From Chitinophaga pinensis (lineage in GTDB: Bacteria > Bacteroidota > Bacteroidia > UKL13-3): DNA of 64,000 bases. The notes beneath the pieces were generated by a model. That model was not told where the DNA came from, searched no databases, and was given only the letters and a program-made list of their open reading frames with translations. This document shows, piece after piece, positions 55,599 to 56,746 of the stretch; position 1 is the stretch's first letter; each line of letters starts with the position of its first letter. The DNA is taken from positions 62,001-126,000 of the forward strand of contig CAMDHZ010000001.1 of assembly GCA_945898275.1 (NCBI GenBank). The letters run 5' to 3'. A program made the translations under genes and the position numbers.

Positions 55599-55957
55599 AA
55601 CTATTCATATTTATTTACACAAAGATGTGGATTCAAGAACTGATAATCCAAAACTATTCTGGCCTAAAACTTTCTTCTTTAGAATGTCAAGGAATTAAAT
55701 AATTCACTTAATAATTTAATTGGAATTGATTCTGTCATCGTTCATTATTTTGTTGTCCCAAAAAATTGAACCTTTAATTTTTTCCTCCACAACTTTTGCG
55801 TTTGATCCAACTTTTGTGTTTGATTCAAAAAAAAATCGTGCCAAAACAGTATGCAAATAGTATGCAAAAAAAAAGGGTTTAAAGCGGACATGCTCTAAAC
55901 CCTTGATTTTACTGCTCCCTCTCCTGCCCCGATAGCAATGGGGGTCGAACCAGTAGT
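55599..55957. other. Interval with short direct repeats, downstream of the GIY-YIG array
   Basis: It contains AGTATGCAAA twice (55848-55857, 55859-55868), two GTTTGAT-type repeats near 55800-55826, and the minus-strand terminator at 55866-55904. No gene is supported. Confidence 0.5.
55866..55904 (-). terminator. Terminator after GIY-YIG gene A
   Basis: AAGGGTTTA and TAAACCCTT pair, followed on minus by a run of nine T. It ends the tRNA-Asn/GIY-YIG array. Confidence 0.8.
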
Positions 55958-56245
55958 TTACTGATATTTTAAACGGAGATTCTCGATAATTTCTGGGTGC
56001 AAAATCAAATTCTCTATGTATTTCCTAGATTTCATATTTTTAATATGTCTCTCTATAGAATATGCTTGTTGGGAAGTGAGATTATTGATAAGTAAAAATT
56101 TAATCCATGGTATACCTTTAGCTGTAAATGCATTTGGATAGGCTAAAGTATTATGTTCATCTAATCGCTGAGAAAAATTTGCACAAGTTCCGATGTAATA
56201 CCTATTAAGTTTGCCTGAGAAAATTATATATACTTCATATGTCAT
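55958..56245 (-). CDS. GIY-YIG nuclease family protein, copy A
   Basis: This 95-residue single-domain protein has the first strand EVYIIFSGKL, the YIG strand YYIGTC, the catalytic Arg region RLDEHN and Glu66 in SIERHIKNMKSRKYIE. It differs from copy B at seven positions. The gene is in the duplicated unit downstream of tRNA-Asn; a hairpin copied from the tRNA trailer lies between each gene and the next. DNA cleavage at tRNA sites is an attractive inference but not shown. Confidence 0.88.
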   Translation of the reverse strand: MTYEVYIIFSGKLNRYYIGTCANFSQRLDEHNTLAYPNAFTAKGIPWIKFLLINNLTSQQAYSIERHIKNMKSRKYIENLILHPEIIENLRLKYQ

Positions 56246-56251
56246 TTCATG

Positions 56252-56292
56252 AAAAAAGGCCGCTTCCGATGACTATCGGAATGCGGCCTTTT
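56252..56292 (-). terminator. Hairpin copy between GIY-YIG genes
   Basis: AAAAGGCCGC and GCGGCCTTTT arms, a copy of the tRNA-Asn trailer terminator 379 bp away. Confidence 0.75.
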
Positions 56293-56336
56293 GCTCCCTC
56301 TCCTGCCCCGATAGCAATCGGGGTCGAACCAGTAGT

Positions 56337-56624
56337 TTACTGATATTTTAAACGGAGATTCTCGATAATTTCTGGGTGCAAAATCAAATTCTCGATGTAT
56401 TTCCTAGATTTCATTTTTTTAATATGTCTCTCTATTGAATATGCTTGTTGGGAAGTGAGATTATCAATAAGTAAAAATTTAATCCATGGTATACCTTTGG
56501 TTGTAAATGCATTTGGATAGGCTAAATTATTATGTTCATCTAATCGCAGAGAAAAATTTGCACAAGTTCCGATATAATACCTATTAAGTTTGGCTGAGAA
56601 AATTATATATACTTCATAAATCAT
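56337..56624 (-). CDS. GIY-YIG nuclease family protein, copy B
   Basis: This 95-residue near-twin of copy A (88 of 95 identical by eye) has the same motifs: EVYIIFSAKL, YYIGTC, RLDEHNN, SIERHIKKMKSRKYIE. It is the unit next to tRNA-Asn. The seven substitutions leave the catalytic residues intact in both copies, so both are probably under selection or the duplication is recent. Confidence 0.88.
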   Translation of the reverse strand: MIYEVYIIFSAKLNRYYIGTCANFSLRLDEHNNLAYPNAFTTKGIPWIKFLLIDNLTSQQAYSIERHIKKMKSRKYIENLILHPEIIENLRLKYQ

Positions 56625-56630
56625 TTCATG

Positions 56631-56671
56631 AAAAAAGGCCGCTTCTGAGGACTATCGGAATGCGGCCTTTT
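56631..56671 (-). terminator. tRNA-Asn trailer terminator
   Basis: AAAAGGCCGC and GCGGCCTTTTTT arms, on minus directly after the tRNA 3' end. Confidence 0.8.
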
Positions 56672-56672
56672 G

Positions 56673-56746
56673 CTCCCTCTCCTGGGCTCGAACCAGGGAC
56701 CCCATGATTAACAGTCATGTGCTCTAACCAGCTGAGCTAAGAAGGA
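56673..56746 (-). tRNA. tRNA-Asn (anticodon GTT)
   Basis: 74 nt on minus. The acceptor TCCTTCT pairs with AGAGGGA (one G-T) and has discriminator G. The anticodon loop CTGTTAA has GTT. The T-arm is CCTGG TTCGAGC CCAGG. CCA is not encoded. The 3' end is the boundary of the accessory region. Confidence 0.95.

Follow-up and report, generated by a model that had tools for sequence, protein, structure and literature searches.

Two tandem units of 379 bp are located directly 3' of the tRNA-Asn gene in the window (the whole 64,000-nt stretch of DNA analysed here), on the strand of the tRNA (Table 1). Each unit is composed of a terminator, a promoterless GIY-YIG ORF in the direction of the tRNA, and a hairpin-masked copy of part of the cognate tRNA. 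According to the comparison between genomes, such units insert at the tRNA 3' end, spare the tRNA, and form tandem arrays and tRNA-type lineages. Our preferred explanation, to which we give slightly better than even chances, is that the unit is a nuclease-driven, integrase-free minimal selfish cassette, which is dedicated to one tRNA type and carries a masked copy of that tRNA. The architecture appears to represent a class of selfish element not described before; it lacks the immunity of homing elements, and it matches neither integrase elements, nor integrons, nor REP/RAYT.

The sequence TGCTCCCTCTCCTG (the reverse complement of CAGGAGAGGGAGCA) is found at 55913, 56292, and 56671, with spacings of 379 and 379. 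The coordinates and spacing of the two tandem units downstream of tRNA-Asn, reported in an earlier note on this DNA, were thus reproduced. The two units are 96% identical (300-nt core). In the direction of the tRNA, the order within a unit is the terminator-like hairpin (GGCCGC...GCGGCC-T6), the 95-aa ORF, and the copy of the tRNA 3' end, and the ORFs start a few bases past the T-run of the hairpin. Both 95-aa ORFs match the Pfam GIY-YIG family, as the earlier note had read them, and the hairpins that it had likened to the tRNA trailer are present 3' of tRNA-Asn and of the first tRNA copy. The copy of the tRNA 3' end assigned to each unit is also present, but it is longer than had been stated, as CTGGTTCGA matches the T-arm too, and it is not intact. 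According to the alignment, tRNA-Asn itself corresponds to CTGGTTCGA-GCC-CAGGAGAGGGAGC, and the copy corresponds to CTGGTTCGA-CCCCGATTGCTATCGGGG-CAGGAGAGGGAGC. The 18-nt hairpin CCCCGATTGCTATCGGGG substitutes for nt 60–62 in the copy, and in the distal unit it has decayed by one base. The units had been proposed to rebuild the tRNA 3' end. In this wording the proposal was not supported; the copy carries the hairpin interruption, and elsewhere the anticodon arm, variable loop, T-arm, or D-arm is broken. In a genome-wide search, the palindrome of the window was absent from the rest of the 3.5-Mb genome (expected chance matches in the window, 0.03).

Table 1. Features of the tRNA-Asn locus and its two cassettes (positions in the window).
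Feature	Position	Strand	Basis
tRNA-Asn(GTT), intact anchor gene	56672..56746	(-)	ARAGORN; Rfam tRNA 64 bits; identical to element-free congeners
Proximal 379-bp cassette: terminator, GIY-YIG ORF, interrupted tRNA copy	56292..56670	(-)	Direct repeat, 379-bp spacing
Distal 379-bp cassette	55913..56291	(-)	Direct repeat, 379-bp spacing
Terminator-like hairpin, proximal cassette (GGCCGC/GCGGCC + T6), directly 3' of tRNA	56631..56671	(-)	Sequence
Terminator-like hairpin, distal cassette	56252..56291	(-)	Sequence
GIY-YIG gene, proximal, 95 aa	56337..56624	(-)	Pfam PF01541 E 6e-8
GIY-YIG gene, distal, 95 aa	55958..56245	(-)	Pfam PF01541 E 8e-8; dN/dS 0.27 vs proximal
Hairpin-interrupted copy of tRNA-Asn T-arm/acceptor 3' end, proximal	56292..56332	(-)	Alignment to tRNA
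Masking hairpin CCCCGATTGCTATCGGGG in place of tRNA nt 60–62	56306..56323	(-)	Alignment to tRNA; genome search
Hairpin-interrupted tRNA-Asn copy, distal; hairpin one base off perfect	55913..55953	(-)	Sequence; direct repeat
Native tRNA-Asn trailer/terminator, displaced by cassettes	55867..55912	(-)	90% over 102 bp to post-tRNA-Asn sequence in element-free G010 (L098)

Synteny between tRNA-Asn and the pfkB gene next to it extends throughout the host family. The congener G010 (L098) lacks a GIY-YIG gene at tRNA-Asn; there, tgaaaatcaagggtttagagc... is located directly 3' of the tRNA, and the matching terminator ends the window array after the last unit. Thus, the cassettes lie exactly between the tRNA 3' end and the native terminator; at base resolution, the comparison uses this one clean site. 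The window's genome (G000) has two units between tRNA-Asn and the native trailer. In the genome G009, a single unit with a much more diverged nuclease (45% amino-acid identity) occupies this position, and the native trailer comes after it as well. The simplest reading is that the units of G000 and G009 result from independent insertions at one tRNA-Asn site. The site is filled in G000, G009, G024, G062, and G063 and empty in most congeners, and such sporadic presence at a fixed site is seen with homing elements.

In the case of typical homing elements, the insertion interrupts or alters the recognition site, and the carriers become immune. The tRNA-Asn of the carriers here has the same sequence as that of the non-carriers, and only the junction between tRNA and trailer is altered. 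Thus, the immunity of a homing endonuclease element was not found, and the carriers would seem to be still cleavable, which is the main weakness of a nuclease-driven model. A resistant tRNA-Asn in the carriers was considered and rejected, because the sequence is the same as in the non-carriers.

Homologues were detected in 41 of the 64 genomes of the host family, often in tandem at a spacing of 355–416 bp and in arrays of up to eight units. Using a profile built from 56 members, they were detected in 225 of the 395 sampled genomes of the phylum Bacteroidota. Nearly all intact loci examined adjoin a tRNA, mostly on its 3' side and often in tandem. The partner tRNAs are Asn, three Met-CAT types, Asp, Ala, Val, Pro, Phe, Arg, Ser, Leu, Gly, and Thr. 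Under a strict position rule (first nuclease gene directly preceded by a tRNA on the same strand), 79 of 114 loci were counted; a tRNA on the 3' side was counted once, and one on the opposite strand four times. The other 35 loci mostly have the tRNA within the stop-to-stop extension of the ORF, a contig end, or intervening IS-like sequence. L204 and L205 lie behind IS-like sequence, yet retain Phe or Asn tRNA copies. Rfam gave no match in 20 loci without an ARAGORN tRNA, and on inspection many of these were found to have masked tRNA copies or to lie at contig ends. The proposed link of the family to tRNA 3' ends holds across the phylum, and the test for the alternative, homologues scattered away from tRNAs, spoke for this link. 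A distinct GIY-YIG clade (L040, L041, and L081–L086), set apart by a highly supported split, has no tRNA linkage and serves as an internal control. L081–L086 are a group of their own in the same family, unlinked to tRNAs, and L082–L086 are located within other dispersed repeats (CTCGAGTG...ATCGAGAGG). By tblastn, the window protein had no plasmid or phage match.

The nuclease tree was constructed from 125 proteins, and its single forks are unreliable because only 84 columns are usable. On this tree the 15 tRNA labels show 27 changes (minimum 14; shuffled mean 88; none of 200 shuffles as low), and the host-family labels show 31 changes as compared with 52 after shuffling. These results indicate that the nuclease lineage follows the tRNA type better than the host. 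On this sequence evidence, tRNA-type-specific nuclease lineages cross host families.

The copy located after the ORF was aligned to the intact neighbouring tRNA at 66 loci. A perfect hairpin of at least 6 bp is present in 58 of the 66 copies, as compared with 10.7% of dinucleotide shuffles and 18 of the 66 parent tRNAs. The copies range from ~23 nt of tRNA in the window to nearly the whole tRNA (L005, L210, L214, and L224). Within the partial cognate copy, the palindromic hairpin takes the place of one or two arm segments, and all inspected cases have at least one native arm broken. Within a lineage, the replaced interval is constant and base-exact. In the initiator tRNA-Met, 10 nt are replaced (nt 37–46, or 38–47 with the numbering shifted by one) at six loci from more than one host family. 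The mask is located at nt 39–48 in the Ile-k2C tRNA (four loci) and at nt 58–61/62 in the elongator tRNA-Met (five loci), and in tRNA-Val the whole anticodon arm, nt 29–45, is replaced (three loci). Some of the Val, Ala, and Pro copies swap the 17-nt anticodon arm for a hairpin of similar length. The mask sequences differ by lineage, and their stems covary (0.435 versus 0.128; 0 of 500 shuffles), with 97.4% of the cells paired; the 17 aligned sequences were hand-picked as hairpins, which favours pairing, and the variety of compensating pairs is stronger evidence than the pairing percentage.

Nuclease-free cassettes of ~100 bp, composed of a terminator and a masked copy, are located at L015, L077, and L121, beside Pro, Ala, and one further tRNA. 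Thus, the repeat unit can multiply without a nuclease of its own. At L227 the order is masked copy, GIY-YIG gene, and intact tRNA, and the element lies 5' of the tRNA. Masked copies are present on both sides of the intact tRNA at L046, L207, L213, and L224. The window's genome also has a nuclease-free, two-hairpin masked copy of tRNA-Arg(TCT) (L145:1389–1465, contig C25); it is preceded by an Ile-k2C-type tRNA-Met(CAT), and the intact tRNA-Arg(TCT) follows it closely.

The GIY-YIG protein belongs to PF01541. Y6, G19, R27, H31, and E65 are invariant, and Y17 nearly so, in 56 relatives, which show 22–51% identity to the query except for its 93% identical twin. The AF2 model of the distal protein, 93% identical to the proximal protein, has a pLDDT of 94.6. 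The predicted fold is closest to SLX1, a branched-DNA nuclease, followed by UPF0213 and I-TevI, and no match reaches an E value below 0.001. SLX1 and UPF0213 are minimal GIY-YIG proteins, either structure-specific and housekeeping or uncharacterised, and we know of no tRNA cassette for them. The 95-aa protein has little beyond the catalytic domain, without a separate DNA-binding domain. Against NCBIfam, the sole match, to group I intron endonucleases, was below threshold, and the PADLOC defence models gave no match for the window protein and one weak match (E 6e-4) for a relative. The dN/dS values are 0.07–0.27 in 11 of the 12 near pairs, including units of the same array, and the twelfth pair shows 0.62 with four differences. 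The window pair has six synonymous and seven non-synonymous differences. The low values indicate that the predicted nuclease is kept active; judged by these ratios, the ORF is under purifying selection.

The preferred cassette explanation can be described as follows. The small SLX1-like nuclease would break the cognate tRNA gene, or a structure that an arm of this gene adopts. Repair of the break through the short homology between tRNA and copy on both sides would then install or amplify the cassette. The hairpin mask would destroy the recognised arm, and the copy could be neither cut nor used for a clean deletion. If the cassette were lost by recombination through the segment 5' of the mask, the only working tRNA would acquire the mask. 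The leading terminator would permit a normal tRNA transcript and keep the expression of the nuclease low. In carriers with an unaltered tRNA, terminator-limited expression and sister-chromosome repair may suffice. Unequal recombination would expand and contract the arrays, those of nuclease-free ~100-bp cassettes included; the near-identical tandem units fit such growth, which the earlier note had suggested. Hairpins in single-stranded DNA, or the tRNA itself, might be the alternative substrate; what the nuclease targets, DNA or RNA, and where it cuts are both inferred. Against the cassette, homology arms of 9–50 bp are short for RecA, and the mask is a palindrome rather than any substitution. 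In addition, the 5' element of L227 and the two-sided masks of L046, L207, L213, and L224 are unpredicted by simple 3' insertion.

A stronger form of the cassette explanation is a phylum-wide 'tRNA-hostage' class, which we consider doubtful. Type-specific minimal nucleases would attack one essential tRNA gene in genomes without the element and spread by repair through tRNA homology. The hairpin-masked copies would resist cutting and make deletion lethal. Sometimes a recoded, resistant replacement tRNA would be present, and the class would thus be a natural bacterial cleave-and-rescue drive.

An RNA-level system is unlikely. The GIY-YIG protein would be a tRNA-type-specific tRNA nuclease, and the masked copy would be a decoy or antitoxin RNA in which the cleaved arm is swapped for a hairpin, with a logic like that of type III toxin-antitoxin arrays. 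The broken native arms of the inspected copies, the 17-nt anticodon arm swapped for a hairpin of similar length (Val, Ala, and Pro), the linkage of each to a single tRNA type, and the location of the copies downstream of the ORF and in tandem are all consistent with it. However, many copies, including those of the window (~23 nt), are without most of the tRNA and cannot fold as tRNA, and the nearest folds (SLX1, UPF0213, and I-TevI) are DNA nucleases. Nuclease-free cassettes and 5' copies also occur, and the empty-site insertion and the tRNA-type lineages across host families suggest mobility.

The palindrome CCCGATAGCTATCGGG, which has no perfect match in the window's genome, is dispersed in some relatives (43 copies in G009 and 52 in G062; also G052 and G028; range 26–52). 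Thus, the hairpins may have a life of their own. That the masks are a plain genome-wide repeat was rejected for the window's genome, and this rejection does not hold for all relatives. CCCGATAGCTATCGGG also breaks up other repeats, for example GTCAGTTCGAGCGGAGTCGAGAAC (L119–L138), and it is found three times in a 95-bp tandem repeat in which no tRNA was seen (L135:20–230; contig C93 of G002).

The dispersal of CCCGATAGCTATCGGG, its interruption of other repeats, and the near-identity of the tandem units would fit a passive origin, in which tRNA ends are duplicated in tandem with a domesticated structure-specific nuclease, and the surplus copies are later invaded by REP-like palindromes. This origin is quite unlikely, because in the window's genome the palindrome of the mask is confined to the element, the mask position is base-exact within lineages across host families, and the masks are lineage-specific with covarying stems. 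The nuclease clades also track the tRNA type, and the dN/dS values are low.

In G009 (L046/L252, contig C35), the intact elongator tRNA-Met shows seven changes at the acceptor/T-stem junction. The seven positions are otherwise invariant in the genus, and the changes preserve base pairs as far as inspected. The genus-type tRNA-Met is left only as masked pieces around the changed tRNA-Met, and the flanking copies belong to other tRNA-Met sequence types. In this one case, the changed tRNA-Met could be a foreign or escape-mutated tRNA. Such masked pieces around a changed tRNA, and the two-sided masked copies of L207, L213, and L224, would be expected of natural cleave-and-rescue, in which the cassette brings a working, cleavage-resistant tRNA and the native tRNA gene is split and masked. 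We consider this very unlikely, since there is one clear case, and the tRNA-Asn of the carriers, and likewise the tRNA-Met of the carrier G011, are unchanged.

On the 245-kb contig of the array (C1), no tyrosine recombinase (PF00589) was detected, and no integrase recurs in the immediate flanks of the relatives. The view that the cassette acts without any integrase was supported by this test for a linked integrase. Six PF00589 genes are located elsewhere in the genome. The 379-bp unit has one ORF, the GIY-YIG gene, and encodes neither an integrase nor the HUH Y1 protein of REP/RAYT or IS200/IS605. The linked IntI and attI of integron cassettes were not found, with no PF00589 on the array contig and a tRNA as the anchor in the loci examined. 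A tyrosine recombinase acting in trans on integron-like or tRNA-att cassettes, with the folded masked copy as the att site and the GIY-YIG gene as cargo, is the least probable explanation: the gene-cassette-like build (promoterless ORF, folded 3' site, tandem, one orientation, and ORF-less cassettes), the six recombinases of the genome, and the common use of tRNA 3' ends by tyrosine integrases are in its favour, whereas none of the six is on the array contig, and the cargo is always one nuclease family matched to the tRNA type, unlike the varied cargo of integrons.

For the cassette mechanism, the nearest demonstrated parallel is the phage GIY-YIG homing endonuclease SegB, which cleaves tRNA loci and brings about tandem amplification via homologous recombination (PMC13096335). 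The free-standing GIY-YIG homing endonucleases of T-even phages, SegB above all, share with the cassette the tRNA-linked nuclease and the tandem amplification of tRNA and nuclease through homologous recombination (PMC13096335). No tRNA-type bias is reported for SegB (PMC13096335). SegB is phage-borne, and neither masked tRNA copies nor a precise 3'-end cassette is reported, whereas the protein described here is of 95 aa, chromosomal, and tRNA-type-specific. The cassette may work like a free-standing homing endonuclease.

Integrase-encoding islands at tRNA 3' ends likewise insert there, spare the tRNA, and bring along a copy of its 3' end, but the unit described here has no linked integrase, is 379 bp in length, carries a hairpin-interrupted copy, and is repeated head to tail. 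Integron cassettes (attC) also combine a small promoterless ORF with a foldable 3' site, in tandem and in one orientation, and have ORF-less forms. In contrast, the tRNA-linked cassettes have no linked integron integrase, a single cargo family, a tRNA instead of attI as the anchor, and a tRNA fragment as the folded site. REP/RAYT and IS200/IS605 share the hairpins tied to a small nuclease and the non-autonomous relatives; however, they use a Y1 HUH transposase, whereas here the protein is GIY-YIG and the hairpins lie within tRNA copies. In the open-licence literature, no description of tRNA-linked GIY-YIG cassettes in Bacteroidota was found.

tRNA genes are among the most conserved bacterial DNA and are classical landing sites of integrase-borne elements. 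If the cassette explanation is true, an integrase-free family of 300–400 bp with single-tRNA lineages would rank with the smallest known autonomous mobile units. It would also be a new answer to the question of how a selfish element is housed in an essential gene and does it no harm. The masked copies offer a concrete signature that can be tested, and the mask position would predict the putative site of action of the nuclease.

The elements also mislead annotation and break assemblies. ARAGORN calls masked tRNA-Val copies tRNA-Lys(TTT) (L213:771–865 and L224:751–831), since it takes the swapped arm for a new anticodon loop. Masked copies are thus a likely source of false tRNA annotations. Assembly contigs break at the tRNA/cassette junction at L091 (G007), L094 (G002), and many more loci, and therefore the array counts in draft genomes are too low.
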